NCBI RefSeq assembly: GCF_003439925.1
Contig: NZ_QQRR01000002.1
Coordinates: forward strand, 186,001 to 250,000
Length of the DNA: 64,000 bases
Direction of reading: 5' to 3'
Source of the DNA: Haloprofundus halophilus
Lineage (GTDB): Archaea > Halobacteriota > Halobacteria > Halobacteriales > Haloferacaceae
How positions within the stretch are numbered: position 1 is the first letter of the stretch; the number at the start of each line of letters is the position of its first letter. Shown piece after piece: positions 20,570 to 64,000 of the stretch. The position numbers and the translations under genes are program-made. The notes beneath the pieces are model-generated. The model did not search any database, was not told where the DNA came from, and was given only the letters and a program-made list of their open reading frames with translations.

Positions 20570-20774
20570 TACGGGCGACCATTTCTCTGCGAACGCCGTA
20601 TTCCCGCGATGCTCACGCACTCGTTGCGGGTGCGCTTGCTTTGTCGAAATCGTTAGAGCGTAATAGGAATCGCGTGCTGAATAGAGAGGGTGTATGCAGC
20701 AGATAGTCGTTGTTCGTTTAGCCTCCGCGACGAAACAATCGTTAGGGAGGTAGGCTTATGGAACACTCACGAGA

Positions 20775-21122
20775 TTACGGCCAGTTCTCAGGAAGCTCTT
20801 CCTGATGGTTGGCGATGAGCGTGACGAGTGGCCGTATCTCTTCGAAGTTCGGCCCGCGCGTGATAGTGTTGGATTCGCGGTCCCAATCGATGAATCCAGC
20901 ATCCGCGAGCTGAGGTAGATGGTTGTGATGGAGCGTGACGATGAACTGTTCGAGTTCTCCGTCTTCTGTCGTAAAGTCAGACCTCTCGAACTCGTCCACA
21001 TCCCGTGGATTATCTTCCGCGAGGGTTATCAGTATCCGGCGGCGAGTGGGATGACTCAGAGATATGAATTGTTGGTCGAGTGTAGTGCTTCCAGTTTGTA
21101 GGGCGTCGGTGATTGCTGTCAT
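20775..21122 (-). CDS. DUF7344-type small winged-helix protein
   Basis: This 115-residue protein has the haloarchaeal winged-helix pattern LSHPTRRRILITLAEDNPRDVDEF, then LHHNHLPQLADAGFIDWDRE in the recognition helix-wing region and a short C-terminal helix. It resembles two other genes in the window (29054 and 30389). The start at 21120-21122 is the ATG that best precedes the HTH; a longer frame to 21179 is possible. A role in transcription control is inferred from the fold only. Confidence 0.8.
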   Translation of the reverse strand: MTAITDALQTGSTTLDQQFISLSHPTRRRILITLAEDNPRDVDEFERSDFTTEDGELEQFIVTLHHNHLPQLADAGFIDWDRESNTITRGPNFEEIRPLVTLIANHQEELPENWP

Positions 21123-21565
21123 GGTTGCGTGGCTCGTCAGGAACGCGTGATACTGCGATGCGTCCCGCGTGCCGGCCACGCGAAGGGAACAAGGGAACAG
21201 CGTAACAACCGGGAAGGCCCGGTTTAAGCGACCTCTTCATCATCAAGGTCGAACGCACAATGTGTACTCGTGGTTTCTGTATAGGAAAGAACGGGCCACA
21301 AATGGATAAGGGTGCCGTCTCTGAAAACTTCTCTACTGAGCAATGTAATCTCTGTACCGACCGATTTCGCTACCAGCTTGTGACCGATATGCGCACTGTA
21401 TTCAGCAGTCGGTGAACGAATTCCTCAACTGCTGTCAGTAACGGAGTGCGAGATACAGAGGGTGCATCCATCACAGAGGTAGAGCTATTTTCAGGTCAAA
21501 TACTTGAAGATAACCTTCGGGGAAGGGAGCGTAGTAGTCAATCACCATTCTTGACGGTAGAGAGG
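21123..21565. other. 443-bp AT-richer gap with no clear gene
   Basis: The sequence between the DUF7344-like gene and the lipoprotein gene is less GC-rich than the window average. It has only short, non-conserved frames. One terminal-like motif of the GCTGAATACA family (as CTGTATTCAGCAG) occurs at about 21397-21409. I see no gene in it. Confidence 0.5.
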
Positions 21566-22033
21566 TTATCGACACGACTCGGGATATTTGACACTAATGT
21601 ACAGATACCCTTCTTGGTCGATGCCAACGTCCAGCCCAACACAGTCTCCTTGTTCTGTCAGTTTAGCAGTTTCCCACTCACTATCGTTTTCAGCTATCTC
21701 TCGGTCGGCGTCTACATAGAGGACATATTCACCAGAGTCTGAAACTGGATTTTCCCAGTATGTCCCACCAGCAGTAGTGTAGTGCGGAGCGTTCTCCGCT
21801 TTTGTCGCCGCATCTGCAGTGTATCGTTCCCAAAAGACGACAGTCTCCGTCTTCGCATCCCGAATCATCACGTCAAATAGGTGGGGTTCGGTATCGAGAT
21901 TCACGATGGTAATATCCGTTATGTAAACTTGTGGTGGCTTCTCTCCAAACGGATTGTATGATGAACAGCCAGCCATCCCACTACAGAGTGCAATACCAGA
22001 TAGTCGGAGAGCTGAACGGCGCGAAAATCCCAT
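21566..22033 (-). CDS. predicted lipoprotein of unknown function
   Basis: This 155-residue protein has an N-terminal signal: MGFSRRSALRLSGIALCSGMAGC. It combines a twin-arginine pair (RR) with a lipobox ending at Cys (residue 23), as in many haloarchaeal Tat-exported lipoproteins. The mature part is acidic, has no recognised domain, and contains a VYITDITIVNLDTEPHLFDV strand that looks like a beta-sandwich. It would be anchored on the outer face of the membrane. The AT-rich surroundings and lower GC content suggest it was acquired. Confidence 0.75.
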   Translation of the reverse strand: MGFSRRSALRLSGIALCSGMAGCSSYNPFGEKPPQVYITDITIVNLDTEPHLFDVMIRDAKTETVVFWERYTADAATKAENAPHYTTAGGTYWENPVSDSGEYVLYVDADREIAENDSEWETAKLTEQGDCVGLDVGIDQEGYLYISVKYPESCR

Positions 22034-22250
22034 ACCACGAACTAATTACAATCTGTTAAATATGTTTCTCAACTGAGGACCTCTACTGTACTTAGTGTTG
22101 TGACTTATCTCGATTTGGAACCTTACCGTGCGGCATACGCGCGTTCTATTCAGCACACTCTCACCAAGTTGTCACTGACTACGCGTTTCGATAGAGCTCA
22201 TACTCTCCAACTCGCTCGTAGAACGCACAGCCGAAGAGACCCAACGAGTA

Positions 22251-48180: not shown

Positions 48181-48233
48181 TGTTTCACACAGATGCAAGG
48201 AGGAAGCCCACGACTTCAGTCGTGGGTCACTGA
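48181..48233 (+). repeat. IS200/IS605-like palindromic end (relic)
   Basis: CCCACGACT (48207-48215) and AGTCGTGGG (48218-48226) form a 9-bp stem with a 2-base loop, preceded by TTCACACAGAT and GGAAG. An inverted, nearly identical copy lies at 60705-60757. The flush hairpin next to a GGAAG-type tract is typical of IS200/IS605-family ends and their palindromic derivatives. No transposase gene is attached. Confidence 0.65.
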
Positions 48234-48308
48234 CCCGCTCGGGACGTTACTTGCATATTGTTTCAGCCGCCATACACTCATCGTCAGAGACGACTGAGTA
48301 GCAAACTC

Positions 48309-48329
48309 AGAACCCACTTCGATTGCTCT
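48309..48329. repeat. left 21-bp direct repeat flanking the solA element
   Basis: AGAACC-C-ACTTCGATTGCTCT occupies 48309-48329 and recurs with one C-to-T change at 49919-49939. The two copies exactly abut the terminal inverted repeats of the 1589-bp element between them, as a target-site duplication would. Confidence 0.75.
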
Positions 48330-48477
48330 GTTGAAACCCTCGGAACGTGACAGGAATAACGTGCTGAATACAGAGCGCAAATGCACCAACTCCGACCCCT
48401 TTGCCGAGACGCTGGTGAAAATTGAAAATGGATTGTCACACCGCAGATTTCAAGCGAACGTTCTTGAATGCAGTATC

Positions 48478-49629
48478 ATGAACAAACTGGACTCGGAAAG
48501 CAAGTTCGATTACGACGTACTCGTCGTCGGTGTTGGAGGGATGGGAAGCGCCGCAACGCACCACCTCGCCGCACGAGGGGTTGACGTCCTCGGGCTCGAA
48601 CGATACGACATTCCACACACGATGGGGTCGTCACACGGTGTGACCCGAATCATCCGAAAAGCGTACCACGAGCATCCTGACTATGTACCGCTACTCAACC
48701 GGGCATACGAACTCTGGGACGATCTCGAAGCACAACACGACCAAGCATTGCTCTACACACATGGGTCACTCGCTCTCGGCCGGCCCGATTCAGAGACCGT
48801 CACTGGTGCCCAAGAGGCCTGCCAGACCCACAGTCTCGAATACGAACGGTTGGATGCAGCCCAAATCAACGAGCGATTCTCGGGATTCGACCTTCCAGAT
48901 GATTTCGTGGGAGTCTACCAACCGGAGGGTGGCTTTCTGTGGTCAGAGCAGTGCATCGTCGCTCAAGTCAACGCGACCCATCGCGAGGGCGGGACAATCC
49001 ACGCTCGCGAGCGAGTGACTGAGTGGGAAGCCACCGATGAGTCGGTACGCGTCGTAACGGACCGAGATACCTACACAGCCGAGAAGTTGGTTATTGCTGC
49101 AGGAGCGTGGGCGGCAAAAGTGCTGCCTGAACTCGCTAACGTACTTCAGCCACAGCGGCAAGTGCTGGGCTGGTTCCAGCCAGCGGCTCCCGTAAACTTC
49201 CGGCCCGAGTCGATGCCAGTCTACGTCGTCGAACACGACGAGGATGACCTCTATTACGGCTTCCCGCAGTTCAACGTACCAGGCGTAAAAGTCGGGAAAC
49301 ACTATCACTTCAGAGAAGACGTCGACCCAGACGAGATGGCACGCGAGCCTCGAAACGAGGACGAAGTCGTCCTCCGAGAGTGGTTGGATCACGGCCTTCC
49401 GACTGCAAATGGGCCACCGATGGCGCTGTCGACCTGCTTGTACACGAACACGCCCGATAAGGAATTCATAATCGACCACCACCCTACGTATGACAACGTC
49501 GTCATAGCCTGTGGGTTCAGTGGACACGGATTCAAATTCTCGAGTGTTGTCGGAGAGATTCTTGCCGACTTAGCAATCAACGGCGAGACCGACCATCCGA
49601 TAGAGCGCTTCGCGGCCGACCGATTTTGA
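48478..49629 (+). CDS. solA: SolA-type FAD amine oxidase (N-methyltryptophan/sarcosine oxidase family)
   Basis: This 383-residue flavoprotein starts MNKLDSESKFDYDVLVVGVG. The N-terminal FAD motif is VVGVGGMGSAATHHLAARG, followed by DIPHTMGSSHGVTRIIRKAY, the His-Gly-Ser-Thr region of the monomeric sarcosine oxidase/N-methyltryptophan oxidase family. The C-terminal CGFSGHGFKFSSVVGEILAD holds the motif that covalently attaches FAD in relatives. The ATG at 48478 is chosen because the 49 upstream residues do not match the family. It lies within a transposon-like unit. The substrate is probably an N-methyl amine. Confidence 0.9.
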   Translation: MNKLDSESKFDYDVLVVGVGGMGSAATHHLAARGVDVLGLERYDIPHTMGSSHGVTRIIRKAYHEHPDYVPLLNRAYELWDDLEAQHDQALLYTHGSLALGRPDSETVTGAQEACQTHSLEYERLDAAQINERFSGFDLPDDFVGVYQPEGGFLWSEQCIVAQVNATHREGGTIHARERVTEWEATDESVRVVTDRDTYTAEKLVIAAGAWAAKVLPELANVLQPQRQVLGWFQPAAPVNFRPESMPVYVVEHDEDDLYYGFPQFNVPGVKVGKHYHFREDVDPDEMAREPRNEDEVVLREWLDHGLPTANGPPMALSTCLYTNTPDKEFIIDHHPTYDNVVIACGFSGHGFKFSSVVGEILADLAINGETDHPIERFAADRF

Positions 49630-49705
49630 ACCAAGTATCCAGACAGATTGCTTAGGATTAGTCAGCTCATTCTGACAGCAAACGAGGTGGTGGTAGTGTG
49701 CGCTT

Positions 49706-49880
49706 GCTGCATACACCCTCTGGGCCTTGTTTAGACGCGGTGCAGTTCGTCCTCTACGACCTTTTGTTAACCAACAAAATAGGGGTGAGCGTCACTCACA
49801 AATGGATTCCGTTCACCCAACAGAGCCACCAACTGCCGCTATCTAGGGCGTCTAAACCAGGCTCACCCTCTGTATTCAAC
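49706..49880. repeat. MITE-like hairpin element inside the right end of the solA unit
   Basis: A 33-bp left arm (49706-49738) and right arm (49848-49880) are inverted and mostly complementary; GGCCTTGTTTAGACGC pairs with GCGTCTAAACCAGGC. Between them TTTTGTTAACCAACAAAA adds a smaller hairpin. Total length is 175 bp with no coding capacity. It is embedded in the right terminus of the element at 48330-49918. Confidence 0.55.
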
Positions 49881-49913
49881 ACGCCCTCAACAAACTATCA
49901 CTGATTGAGGATT

Positions 49914-52900
49914 TCAACAGAACCTACTTCGATTGCTCTCTGGTAACTGGTCGCGCAACCACTCGACCGGATACATCGCTGTCAACCCGGGTGTCTCGAT
50001 GCGGAACTGCTGTGGTGGGGTCGTATTCGCATAGGTTTTCTCGACGCGCGGGTCGCCCTCGAGCGGGTCGTTGAGCGCTTGCAGTACTGCGTGGCCTGCA
50101 GATTGAGTCATGACGACCCAGATGGCGTCGTCAACGTTGCAGTCGGCGATCTTATCGAAATCTTCGGGGACGGCACGGCGAATGTCGTGATTCACCCGCT
50201 CGGCTTCGACGGCAACGACGATAGTGCCATCAGCATCGAGGCCTGCGATGTCGAGACGACGGCGGTCATCGATATCGTAGTACGGAATCACGTCGACGAC
50301 CGGCGACTCTGGGTCTTCGAGGTACGCTTCGACGAGGTACTGTCGGGCCACCTCGATGGCGAGGACGTGCTGGCTCGACTCTTCGAGGTCACCTGCACCG
50401 TGGCCGTAGTCGACGCCTTGACGGTAGCTTTCCCCAATTTCGCTTCGACCATCGGGCGTTACCGAGTAGAGACGGTGTGGGTGGTCGGTATCGTGTCGAA
50501 GCAGTCCGTCGTCGATGAGACTCTCGACGGCCGCTGACTCGATTCCAACGTATTCCTGTAAGCGGAGCATCGAATCGTGTAACAGATTGTATTCGAGTGG
50601 GGTATATCGAAGTTGCTGGGCATTATACACAGCCTGGAGGAACAGCAGCTGTGTATCCGTATACCCTGAGACAGCCCGCTCTTCAGGAGTGAGCTTGAGG
50701 TTTATCTCGCAGATCGGCACGTCATCGCGGTCGATGTCTCGAAGTGAGAAACAGCACGCAATGGCGCGCTGCATGCCCTCGATGGTCGGGTCGTAGCGAT
50801 TGTAACAGTCCGTACAGAAAAGCGCATGAATGGAGTCACTGTAGCGAACCGTCGGCGGCATCCGATTTGTGTACGGAAGCGCAGAGTCGACTCGCTGCTG
50901 TGGGAGCGATGAGTCATCATCTGAGGCAGCTGTCTCTGTCTTTGTATCTGAGTCTATATCCGTCTCATTCGATGTCTCCGCACCGCCTTCATCGGATGTG
51001 GCCGTACTCGGGAGGGTAAGCGTCAGTCCGTAGTCGGCTATCGTTCGTTCACGACATCGTGTCAGTGCACCTTCGAACGCCTCCTGTTGGGCGGCCGTAA
51101 AGGGGTGGTCGCCTGACGGATCACCGGGCGGCAACGCAGCTGATTTGACGAGAAATGGACGCGGCTCCGGATGGTCGAAACCAGCCGGGAGGCGGACGAG
51201 CCACTGTCCACGGCGGAGTGCTCGTAACCGATTGCCGATTGCCTGCGCATCCATATCGTCGGTGGCGAGTCTCTCAGCGAGACGGCGGTCAACGGGGACG
51301 TTGCCCGTGATGAACGTCGAAATATTGTTCAACACCTCGTCGTAGACGTCGTCGCCGTACGCACGGAGTTGGGCGGGAAATTGCATCGACAGCGTTAGCG
51401 AACAGCCGAAGCTACGAGATTGGGCGAGTAACTGTTTGAGCAAGTCGGAGACGGCGACGCTCGCAGCCTCCTCGATATAGACGTTGACGAGCGGGAGTTC
51501 ACCATCCGGTGTGCGCTTCGAGCGACGACGAAGCGCAGTCCACAGATTCGAGAGGATGACGAGTGTGAGGACGCGCTGTGCCTCACTGCGGAGGTCGCCC
51601 GTATCGAAGATGATGACGACGTCGTCGTTCAAATAGCGAGCGAGGTCGAAAACGGGCGTGTCTGGGTCGTCTACGGCAACGTGATTGAAGATGCGCGCGA
51701 GACGCCGGTCAAGCGGGATTTTCTCGATTCGATTCGCCACGCCTTGCATAATCTCGTCGAACGACCGTGCGCGATTCGCAACGACGCCCGCGAGCATCCG
51801 TTCGAGATCGGCGTCGGAGACCGCAGGAGCCACTTGGCGTTCGTGCATCTGTCGGACTGCCGTGTGGAGGTCGCGGTGTGAAAAAGCGTCGTGCCCACTG
51901 ACGGGATCGAACATCGCCTTTGTGAGATAGCGGATGATATCGGGCGAGCGAACGGCTTGCTCGAAGCGGTCTGTTCCCATGATTTGAGAGAGAATTTCGA
52001 TGTAGTGGTCGACCGTATCCTCGACGGCCGTCGTCCGAGAGACGCCTGCGTCGACTTCATCGCGAATGTCGAAAAATGAGAACGCAGGCAGTACCTCCGC
52101 GCAATCGAAGTAGATGACGTTATCGAGCGTGCCGAATCTCGCGAAATGTGCTGTCAGGTAATCGACTGCCATCCCGTCGCCTTTCGGTTCGATGATGATG
52201 TCTGCGCCTGACGTGGCGGTGTGATTGTGCAAGATGGCGTTGTTCGCACTCGTCGTCTTGCCTGCGCCAGTTTTGCCGAACCACCCAACGTGTAACGACT
52301 GCAGACTCGGTGGGAGCGTGAGCGGTTCGGTCGCTTTATTCCCATCCTGGGTAAGTGGCGTTCCGAGAAGCAAACCCTGTCCGCGATAGCGTGCGAGCAG
52401 CTCTTTCGGTGGCTGTGCCAACGGCGTCCGTTCGCCAGGCGTCGGGGCAACAGCACGCACCCCGGCTGCGGTGAGCGCGTTGGCATCGACGGCGAAGAAG
52501 TTCGCAACCTCCGTTGCGTCGGCGACGATTGCCCGACTCTGTGGGGTGCGCCACGGGAGGCGATTCGAGAACTGTGTGTACGTCGGTGCGTAGAACGTCC
52601 GCTCACAGATTGCGGTCAGCAGGTGGCTGGCTTCGTGGCCACGTCGAACACGTCCTGTGAGTTCATACGACGTTCGACCGACGGGCGCAAACGCCGAGGC
52701 GAGTTCGTGAGCAATCGCCGTGGCCGCAGTACCTGTGTCTTCACCGTGAGCGAGAATGGCGATGCGGGCGTTCACGTCGAACGAGCGATGTGTTTCACGG
52801 ACCGCGAGTTCGTCGAGTCTCGCTTCGTCACTGTGTGGAATCGGAAGGTCGTCGTCGGGTGGGCCGAATACGGCAGTCGAGAGTTTGCCACCGAGGGTGT

Positions 52901-53564
52901 CCTGACTCGTCTCGAGTGCTTTTCGTCGGACGTCGGCTGCAGCCGTCCAATCCGGTTTCGGGCGTAACAGTGTCTGGTAGATAATCGAGCAGTCGCTGGC
53001 TGCCATCGTCTCGATGATGGCTGCAAGCGGGATTCGTGTGTGCGTCTTACTCTGGCTCTGGCTCTGGTTACTCTCGCTGGCTTCGAACTCGCTGAAGGGC
53101 GTCAGTCGTGTTTGCCAATCTTGGGGTCGTTCGACACAACCCTCGTACTCGACAGCAGCGATGGTATCGGACGCATCGTTTGTTTCATCCGTTGAGCCTG
53201 GGTTGAACTCTCGTGCTCGGATTTCCTCGGTAGTTCGGGTTGTCCGTGTGAGTTCGTACGAGTCGGGAAACAACCCTCTGAGGACGCGTTCGAGTGTATC
53301 GGTCGCTTCGGGTTCGTCGACACCGAACAGATACGTGAGACTCGCCTCATCGGCTCCTTCAGAGATGAGCAGACACTCGATTGTTGGCGGTGAGGGGCGA
53401 TTGAAGAGTTTGATCCCTGCTGAGTGGCGCTGTTGTGGGAGTTGGTGGAGACGGCGTACGTGTGTCGCAACGGTCTCTGGGTTCAGCGATTCGTCTGCTG
53501 GCCGGACGCGAATGTAGGTTCGTGCCTGTTCGAGCGGTACTGGGAGGTCGGTATCATCAGCCAT
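49914..53564 (-). CDS. HerA/TraG-like ATPase with C-terminal nuclease-like domain
   Basis: This 1216-residue protein has an N-terminal 400-residue region typical of VirB4/HerA-like conjugative ATPases. Walker A is GWFGKTGAGKTTSANN (about residue 430), and the DEXX-like box is VNVYIEEAASVAV (about 695). Then NISTFITGNVPVDRRLAERL and RRGQWLVRLPAGF follow. Next come two Cys pairs (CTDC near 916; ACC) and a winged-helix region. The C-terminal domain, with RRLDIAGLDADGTIVVAVEAE (1103-1122), has a D...ExE spacing like a PD-(D/E)xK nuclease. It has no partner in the window and probably belongs to an integrated plasmid or ICE. The stop lies in the solA element. Confidence 0.85.
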   Translation of the reverse strand: MADDTDLPVPLEQARTYIRVRPADESLNPETVATHVRRLHQLPQQRHSAGIKLFNRPSPPTIECLLISEGADEASLTYLFGVDEPEATDTLERVLRGLFPDSYELTRTTRTTEEIRAREFNPGSTDETNDASDTIAAVEYEGCVERPQDWQTRLTPFSEFEASESNQSQSQSKTHTRIPLAAIIETMAASDCSIIYQTLLRPKPDWTAAADVRRKALETSQDTLGGKLSTAVFGPPDDDLPIPHSDEARLDELAVRETHRSFDVNARIAILAHGEDTGTAATAIAHELASAFAPVGRTSYELTGRVRRGHEASHLLTAICERTFYAPTYTQFSNRLPWRTPQSRAIVADATEVANFFAVDANALTAAGVRAVAPTPGERTPLAQPPKELLARYRGQGLLLGTPLTQDGNKATEPLTLPPSLQSLHVGWFGKTGAGKTTSANNAILHNHTATSGADIIIEPKGDGMAVDYLTAHFARFGTLDNVIYFDCAEVLPAFSFFDIRDEVDAGVSRTTAVEDTVDHYIEILSQIMGTDRFEQAVRSPDIIRYLTKAMFDPVSGHDAFSHRDLHTAVRQMHERQVAPAVSDADLERMLAGVVANRARSFDEIMQGVANRIEKIPLDRRLARIFNHVAVDDPDTPVFDLARYLNDDVVIIFDTGDLRSEAQRVLTLVILSNLWTALRRRSKRTPDGELPLVNVYIEEAASVAVSDLLKQLLAQSRSFGCSLTLSMQFPAQLRAYGDDVYDEVLNNISTFITGNVPVDRRLAERLATDDMDAQAIGNRLRALRRGQWLVRLPAGFDHPEPRPFLVKSAALPPGDPSGDHPFTAAQQEAFEGALTRCRERTIADYGLTLTLPSTATSDEGGAETSNETDIDSDTKTETAASDDDSSLPQQRVDSALPYTNRMPPTVRYSDSIHALFCTDCYNRYDPTIEGMQRAIACCFSLRDIDRDDVPICEINLKLTPEERAVSGYTDTQLLFLQAVYNAQQLRYTPLEYNLLHDSMLRLQEYVGIESAAVESLIDDGLLRHDTDHPHRLYSVTPDGRSEIGESYRQGVDYGHGAGDLEESSQHVLAIEVARQYLVEAYLEDPESPVVDVIPYYDIDDRRRLDIAGLDADGTIVVAVEAERVNHDIRRAVPEDFDKIADCNVDDAIWVVMTQSAGHAVLQALNDPLEGDPRVEKTYANTTPPQQFRIETPGLTAMYPVEWLRDQLPESNRSRFC

Positions 53565-57437: not shown

Positions 57438-57826
57438 TCGCGAGGGAGTAGAACGTGAGGCTGTGATTACCACTCCATCATCCTGTATCTGCACACTCCC
57501 AGCGGCTGATTCGCGCGCTGTATTCAGCACTCTCTCAAAATCTCCCATCGACTAGATATTTCTGCCGGGTCGGTATCGTTCGTGGTAACATTGGAAACGG
57601 TTCTGCAAGGAGTTTCGCCGCTTACGCTAACAACTGAGTAGCAAACTCAAAAAGCGAGAATATGGAGTGTTCGGTTCTCGATACAAGTCCGAGAACAGTC
57701 ACCGCGTTAAACGCTCGTTGTACAGCGTTTGTTAGATAGCGCGGTTCCTTCAGAAGAGATACTCGTCGCTGCCGTGGGCAATAGTGGGCAAGCGTCATCA
57801 GATCGTGGGTCATAGTGGGTAACGAG
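57438..57826. other. 389-bp gap with a GCTGTATTCAGCAC motif and a 17-bp repeat
   Basis: A CGCGCTGTATTCAGCACTCTC motif (about 57514-57534) belongs to the terminal-repeat family listed among the findings. ACTGAGTAGCAAACTCA at 57633-57649 is identical to 48293-48309. The MazE gene follows at 57827. No gene is seen. Confidence 0.5.
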
Positions 57827-58410: not shown

Positions 58411-58561
58411 GCGATTCGACGCAGACGACGTGGGGGAGCGCAGTAAGCTGATTTAATCGACTTGTGGGCTGTATCCAGCAAAGCTTCCAAGAACTATCGT
58501 CGATTGAGGGTGTGCCCGAGCCCGATTGTCAGCGGCTATTCTAAAGAAAACAGCGAGAGTT

Positions 58562-63158: not shown

Positions 63159-63545
63159 CTCAGCTCGGCCATTCTTTTTTCGGCTCTGTTAAAACCCAAT
63201 CGGTGATCGGTTTCGGAAGTCGTGCTGCATACAGGGCGCATATTCATCAGGTGACTACCATGTCACCGTCTGCACGGACGTCACCGCCTGCCGAAACGGC
63301 AATAAGTAGCTATCTAACGGCTCATCTCGTACCTCTTTTCGAGGAGGTGACAAAACCTGATGCCAGCCCACCGATACGACTGTGGGAATGGAGTTACTGA
63401 CTGTCGGTTCGTCGGCAGTCCGAAAACAAAGGGGAGGCTCTCATACGGAGTCAGGCCAGGAACAACGGCAAGTACGCAAACTGCGTATCGTACAGAATCG
63501 TGACCGGTCCACCGAATCGAAACCGCTGAAGAATAGGTGATCAAA
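63159..63545. other. 387-bp gap with one terminal-like repeat
   Basis: A GTTAAAACCC...CGTGCTGCATACAGG block at about 63188-63235 has the form of the solA-element left end. A short frame 63260-63400 (46 aa) is not convincing. The region is the upstream side of the last, truncated gene. Confidence 0.5.
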
Positions 63546-64000
63546 ATGGCAGAAACAGCAACCGCAGAACTGAGCGAACATATCGAACACGGAGCTAATC
63601 TCCGGCGAGGTTCCGTATTGATGGCAATCGCGGGGGTTGCATTCATCGGCTACGGTCTCGTCTTTCTCGCCTTGAATTTCGTCGGGAGCGGCTTTGAGCT
63701 CGGGGTCAGTCAACTCGATGGACTGACTCCTGCAGATTTGAACCCGACCGTCGCGTACTACATTAGCCACCTGCACGTCGCCACCGCAGCGTTCATCATC
63801 TCGACAGGGATCGCTGTCACAGCCCTGTCGTGGTACGGGGTGCGCCAGCGGCTTACGTGGGCGTGGGCGACCGCCGTCGTCGCCGCCGTCGTCGGCTTGG
63901 CGCTCGCGTTACCGATGCACTACACTGCGGATGCATTCGCCCACGACTGGGTGACGCATCTCGGGCCAATCTACCTAGCGACAGTCATCTTCGTCGTCGG
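63546..64000 (+). CDS. membrane protein, N-terminal part (cut by window edge)
   Basis: The ATG at 63546 opens a frame to the window edge (about 151 codons). After a soluble leader (MAETATAELSEHIEHGANLR), it has four hydrophobic segments, with HVATAAFIISTGIAVTALSW and LTWAWATAVVAAVVGLALAL among them. His and Asp residues near the membrane (YISHLHV, MHYTADAFAHDWVTHLGPIY) could bind a metal or cofactor. No family is recognised from the visible part. Confidence 0.7.
   Translation, partial: MAETATAELSEHIEHGANLRRGSVLMAIAGVAFIGYGLVFLALNFVGSGFELGVSQLDGLTPADLNPTVAYYISHLHVATAAFIISTGIAVTALSWYGVRQRLTWAWATAVVAAVVGLALALPMHYTADAFAHDWVTHLGPIYLATVIFVV

Follow-up and report, generated by a model that had tools for sequence, protein, structure and literature searches.

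A probable transposase-less mobile insertion cassette carrying solA in Haloprofundus halophilus, with IS5-type ends shared by array-forming elements of haloarchaea

In a 64,000-nt window of the Haloprofundus halophilus genome (GCF_003439925.1, contig NZ_QQRR01000002.1, positions 186,001 to 250,000 of the forward strand), the solA gene (48478-49629, plus strand) encodes a 383-residue flavoprotein of the SolA (N-methyl-L-tryptophan oxidase) type, recognized by NF008425 at 485.6 bits (cut-off 257) and by PF01266, and next to it lies a gene on the minus strand (49914-53564; PF10412, PF12696) for a 1216-residue TraG/TrwB-type (HerA-like) ATPase, whose final residues are encoded inside the border of the element that contains solA. 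This element was originally predicted to be a non-autonomous unit that brought a metabolic gene beside the 3' end of the HerA/TraG-like gene, with a SolA-type amine oxidase as its only cargo; indeed, solA is the sole convincing gene within it, and no transposase gene is present between 48324 and 49924, in contrast to an ordinary insertion sequence (IS) of the IS5 family. We give a probability of about 0.85 to the reading that the solA element is a single-gene mobile insertion cassette (MIC) with IS5-type ends, moved in trans by an IS5 transposase and belonging to a family that forms arrays. Coordinates refer to the window unless a locus or genome label is given; G000 is the window's own genome, G001 a sister species and G002 a genus-mate.

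The bounds of the element, 48324-49924 (1601 bp), are set by the family consensus GGCTCTGTTGAAA. Its left end (L-end, 48324-48386, plus strand; hidden Markov model [HMM] E 5.8e-18) consists of an outer repeat, GCTCTGTTGAAACCCTC, and an inner L-half with GTGCTGAATACAGAG, and its right end (R-end, 49863-49924, minus strand; HMM E 1.7e-15) of the outer repeat GGTTCTGTTGAAATCCTC, a TGATAG block and GTGTTGAATACAGAG. The terminal inverted repeats described in the original prediction are present, the outer repeats TCTGTTGAAACCCTC and GAGGATTTCAACAGA being complementary at 14/15 positions, as is the second inverted block further in, CGTGCTGAATACAGAG at 48360-48375 and 49868-49883 (15/16); what had to be revised is their extent and their equivalence, as end HMMs assign the two ends to different types, one L and one R. 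A miniature inverted-repeat transposable element (MITE) of ~142 bp (49722-49863) is nested within the R-end and splits it; this MITE displays the 8-bp duplication CACCCTCT on both sides, tips similar to those of ISNma1-type IS5, and relatives at G000:C1:1131735-1131890 (86%) and G001:C2:52453 (85%); the innermost bases of the R-end sit past this MITE, reaching about 49700.

The element is flanked by direct copies of an 8-bp target duplication, ACTTCGAT, which forms the core of CACTTCGAT on the left (48315-48323) and of TACTTCGAT on the right (49925-49933), offset by one base at the right end. Around this core, the direct repeats reported earlier at 48309-48329 (AGAACCCACTTCGATTGCTCT) and 49919-49939 were found in place, abutting the inverted repeats and differing at a single position; once the preceding C is added they reach 22 bp (48308-48329 and 49918-49939). 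The left copy reads as CAGAACC, the duplication and TGCTCT, and since these flanking bases are identical to the R-tip and L-tip of the element, the 22-bp repeat can be decomposed into an 8-bp duplication plus tips. A partial copy of the opposite tip right after the duplication was found in two further elements, over 7 bp in L260:20652-20668 and over 17 bp in L281:22704-22730; the extended repeat may be what is left of a tandem duplicate, or may represent a tip-like target. Regarding the ATPase gene, the claim that its last codons were replaced proved marginal: the flanks joined without the element would encode the C-terminus ...SNRSGF*, versus ...SNRSRFC* with the element. Sister species carry no solA at traG; in G001, a different array of the same family, with a RidA gene as its last cassette, ends ~75 bp downstream of the orthologous traG gene (L096:6746-7341), and the traG 3' end was therefore hit at least twice.

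Ends of 60-70 bp of these two types recur throughout haloarchaea. A 171-base left-end query matched partial copies elsewhere in the same genome, a 61-base consensus end matched 33 of 60 relatives, and a 70-base R-end matched 127 plasmid records, which were haloarchaeal wherever an organism was listed. From aligned copies, the L-end consensus is about GGCTCTGTTGAAACCCTCAGAACGTGACAGGAATGGCGTGCTGAATACAGAGGGTG, and that of the R-end about GGCTCTGTTGAAATCCTCAATCGGTGATAGGTTT...CGTGCTGAATACAGAGCGCGTATC. The loci compared here are a convenience sample centred on Haloprofundus, and the models of ends and joints (see below) were seeded by eye from early matches, so that counts of weak sites are approximate. 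Pairing inward-facing ends yielded 52 elements with differing cargo, 27 of which displayed a target duplication matching at 6-8 of 8 positions, with perfect copies in 12 (e.g., GTTATCAG, ATGAATTC, AATGGAAC, ACTGAAAT, ACGCAAGC and GAGTCGTT); conversely, mispaired flanks, used as the null, attained 6/8 in 0.45% of draws, from which we conclude that the duplication of the family is 8 bp long. The arrangement of the solA unit is far beyond chance, because the same ends recur across haloarchaea and pair with 8-bp target duplications. These findings bear on whether a different mover generating a true ~21-bp duplication, as originally predicted, inserted solA: repeats identical at 20/21 positions do adjoin the inverted repeats, but other members of the family show 8 bp and the surplus bases are those of the R-tip and L-tip of the element itself, which makes such a mover very improbable.

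Complete elements that have these ends and also encode a transposase, for which the original prediction had suggested searching related genomes, do exist, including in the window's own genome, G002 and G008. One of them, an IS of a Haloprofundus plasmid (L278:13267-14432) whose annotation places it in the IS5 family, has the ends GGCTCTGTTGAAATCCTAC and GGCTTTGTTGAAATCCTCAGG and the perfect duplication TGAATTCC; relatives of its transposase are present in 47/60 genomes, the close ones bearing the same tip on the transposase side. In the copy of the window's own genome (L289:1449-2752, G000 contig C2, 395.6-396.9 kb), the transposase frame appears intact, the far end is of the R type and the duplication is AAAAATCT; the length of the duplication at solA equals that of both IS5 copies (8 bp in each). 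Transposases of full elements with these tips are of the IS5 DDE type, scoring 212.9 and 216.2 bits against NF033579 (cut-off 140), the latter value corresponding to the own-genome protein, which also keeps the invariant DDE residues D115, D185 and E234. Furthermore, G002 and G008 hold a transposase gene after which come, in this order, an L-half, a cargo region (including a joint in the G008 copy) and a complete R-end, and this arrangement is an autonomous version with passengers. The cassette-only elements, the solA unit included, are thus very probably moved in trans by a transposase of the IS5 family, which is presumably active today. An origin from an IS6-family element, with a pseudo-compound or translocatable unit whose ends are IS6 remnants, would agree with the 8-bp duplication, with the IS6-like GGC...TGTT tips and with the abundance of IS6 in haloarchaea; it is hardly credible, as the IS6 transposase is absent from the window's own genome, the IS6 ends of relatives (GGCACTGTCTAGTTAAG or GGCGGTGTTCAGATAAG) are unlike the cassette ends, and the end model does not mark IS6 tips. 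Other candidates were also discarded: two annotated IS1595 copies that were checked have different ends (CGCTCTT...), and so do ISNma1-type IS5 elements; as for viral carriage, no match was found in phage records, nor in viral contigs for one exact R-end pattern.

Many related elements are multi-gene, with the order L-gene-(joint-gene)n-R, in which the genes are separated by an 85-bp joint (CACCCTCTGTATCTTGCACTCCGTTACTGACAG...TGAGGAGTTCGCTCA...CTGCTGAATACAGnGCGCGTATCGGTCA) composed of the inner L-half, reversed, and the inner R-half, outer tips being absent. In G001, all 29 joints of one 55-kb stretch are oriented alike; from 56.4 to 92.3 kb, the majority of intervals contain one or two plausible genes (simple picks among open reading frames) in mixed orientation, including methyltransferases, RibD-like proteins, DUF7344 regulators, lipoproteins, a CNNM transporter and RidA. 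The joint model matched 185 of 242 haloarchaeal genomes, in 60 of 74 genera, and 19 of 147 genomes in a phylum-wide draw, all 19 from the same order and none among those marked 'same phylum'.

Cassettes are putative units of exchange, bounded by these sites. When homologous stretches between genomes were delimited, 14 of 50 ends fell on L, R or joint sites (2.2 expected with shifted sites, maximum 11 in 2000 draws), and 6 breakpoints coincided with sites in both genomes (0.03 expected, maximum 2). The CNNM cassette, which in G001 has a joint on either side, has counterparts in G004 (96% identity) and in a Halalkalicoccus plasmid (91%). An insertion site common to G000 and G004 shows 99% identity over the R-end and 4.3 kb of flank, with nothing shared inside the inner edge of the R-end. 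An R-end and flank common to three Haloprofundus species, with different cassettes inside, were also seen at L101:4615-9001, L259:15679-20067 and L266 near 13717, two of them sharing over 4 kb at 99% and the third only 86 bp. Joints could alternatively be ordinary intergenic repeats (promoter, terminator or repetitive extragenic palindrome-like) inserted in a standing gene cluster, given that they are short, partly palindromic and devoid of outer tips; however, 29/29 joints of a single stretch point the same way among unrelated genes, the same cassette was seen in several genomes with different genes around it, and the interior is entirely different at one insertion site whose R-end and 4 kb of flank are conserved at 99%; we regard this alternative as quite improbable. 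Joints are instead putative recombination sites.

A tyrosine recombinase assembling one-gene cassettes at the joints, in the manner of an integron, would account for unrelated genes arrayed by one or two per interval between partly palindromic ~85-bp sites facing one way, and for exchange breakpoints located at the sites; the solA unit would then be a lone cassette with secondary terminal repeats. A gene annotated as a site-specific integrase is also found within one Halorubrum cassette, between two weak joint matches of a Halorubrum ezzemoulense element (L283:21616-22320); its product is a sub-threshold integrase-like tyrosine recombinase, far under the cut-offs for XerA (52 of 220 bits) and integron integrase (20 of 265 bits), and is a candidate joining enzyme or mere cargo. 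Against such an assembly, the 8-bp duplications outside L and R ends are the mark of a DDE transposase, genes lie in both orientations, the attC core pair RYYYAAC...GTTRRRY was found in 0/64 joints, and no integron integrase was noted among the open reading frames of the G001 array, where no systematic scan was made. We consider the integron-like reading unlikely, and retain IS5-type transposition as the preferred explanation.

The solA gene itself occurs outside such elements, lacking ends in two relatives (G002 and Halogranum rubrum), which agrees with the earlier claim that a metabolic gene was moved. Homology with G002 (93%) spans 48361-49630 and therefore begins at the same inner core, GTGCTG, the outer repeat being absent there; solA matches at 94% in the H. 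marisrubri SB9 record and at 86% in Halogranum rubrum. From sequence comparison, this distribution would fit the capture of an ordinary solA gene with a short upstream region into a cassette, although G002 could instead hold a decayed cassette.

The L-end and R-end of the solA element have an outer terminal repeat, GGCTCTGTTGAAA(T/C)CC, in common with a haloarchaeal IS5-family transposon. According to the mechanism that we propose, both ends would be recognized by the DDE transposase of an intact IS5 elsewhere in the cell, such as the copy on G000 contig C2. This transposase would move everything between the ends, duplicating the 8-bp target at the 3' end of the traG-like gene, and related elements would contain from one to many cassettes split by joints, with cassettes gained, lost and exchanged at the halves. 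Several points weigh against this explanation: 25 of the 52 end pairs lack a convincing duplication (through decay, rearrangement or wrong pairing); a plain 8-bp duplication does not account for the extended 22-bp repeat; cassette-only L-ends match the transposase-side end of IS5 over the outer ~20-30 bp only; and no movement of the element was observed. In addition, no strictly orthologous case of the empty site suggested in the original prediction was found among the relatives, whose traG C-termini read ...WLRDQSRVNK* or ...WLRDRTVEY* and whose DNA downstream is diverged.

Two additional elements of the family were identified in the window. The first (20637-22198, plus strand) comprises an L-end, a DUF7344 gene (20775-21179, minus strand), a joint (21381-21464), a lipoprotein-like gene (21566-22033, minus strand) and an R-end, that is, two cassettes and one joint, and its 8-bp duplication has not been kept (4/8). 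The other, on the minus strand, extends from 63182 to the window end at 64000 and beyond, with its R-end at 63182-63249, a membrane-protein gene at 63537-64052 and its L-end 249-311 bases past the window end. Solitary R-half-like fragments without outer tips, possibly decayed joints or ends, were seen at 57507-57560 (E 2e-5) and 58457-58511 (E 2e-7). Upstream of the solA element, a hairpin at 48204-48239, CCCACGACTTCAGTCGTGGG, recurs at many places in all five genomes of the genus and looks like an IS200/IS605-type right end, its gene being absent here.

Haloarchaea are noted for gene exchange, and to our knowledge few dedicated single-gene vehicles have been recognized in them besides plasmids, viruses, mating and plain IS elements. 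At even odds in our judgement, the solA unit could be the simplest member of a class-wide haloarchaeal system of gene capture that depends on neither integron integrase nor attC: IS5-type transposons would carry modular one-gene cassettes, and the exchange and joining of these at the 85-bp R-half/L-half sites would produce arrays with tens of unrelated genes. The recognizable ends would allow the mobile accessory genes of haloarchaeal genomes to be listed from sequence alone, and the identity of the joining enzyme becomes a concrete, testable question; should the joints prove to be genuine recombination sites, the system would be the archaeal equivalent of the integron concept, with a DDE transposon as its basis.

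In the open-access literature that was searched, end and joint strings matched one unrelated paper only, and no description of haloarchaeal cassette arrays, ends or joints was found, although an earlier description elsewhere is possible; the cassette family is thus apparently previously undescribed. Regarding known cassette arrays, the solA family resembles integrons and clusters of attC sites lacking integron-integrases (CALINs), including those of archaeal metagenome-assembled genomes (PMC9668308, whose main text uses neither Halobacter- nor haloarchaea), in its arrays of single-gene cassettes and in similar-sized sites resembling recombination sites and facing one way, whereas it differs in lacking an attC core and in having terminal repeats with 8-bp duplications, and no integrase was seen at the arrays read. 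A survey of halophile integrons with Integron Finder, which covered 47 archaeal genomes, located its intron-bearing arrays in a soda-lake metagenome and in one bacterium (PMC7923331). Haloarchaeal IS5 elements (NF033579; relatives 40-47% identical, tips GGCTGTGTTGAATC, 8-bp duplications) share with the cassettes the transposase family, the duplication length and related tips; in contrast, cassette-family tips enclose an extra L-half and R-half plus passengers, and most copies are devoid of transposase. Like MITEs, the solA unit is non-autonomous with IS-derived ends, but units of this type carry complete, functional-looking genes. The closest systems are mobile insertion cassettes such as MIC231, related to IS231 of Bacillus cereus (Chen, 1999 and De Palmenaer, 2004, as cited in PMC2266710; definition in PMC3129680). 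Both harbor passenger genes between IS ends without internal transposase, both show target duplications, and both have relatives among the complete IS of the same group of organisms; unlike MIC231, whose ends are of the IS4 family, the solA family displays two distinct IS5-family ends of ~60-70 bp, forms multi-cassette arrays with an 85-bp joint and spans a whole archaeal class. Our verdict is that solA is the single gene of a mobile insertion cassette, which represents a new variety that forms arrays.

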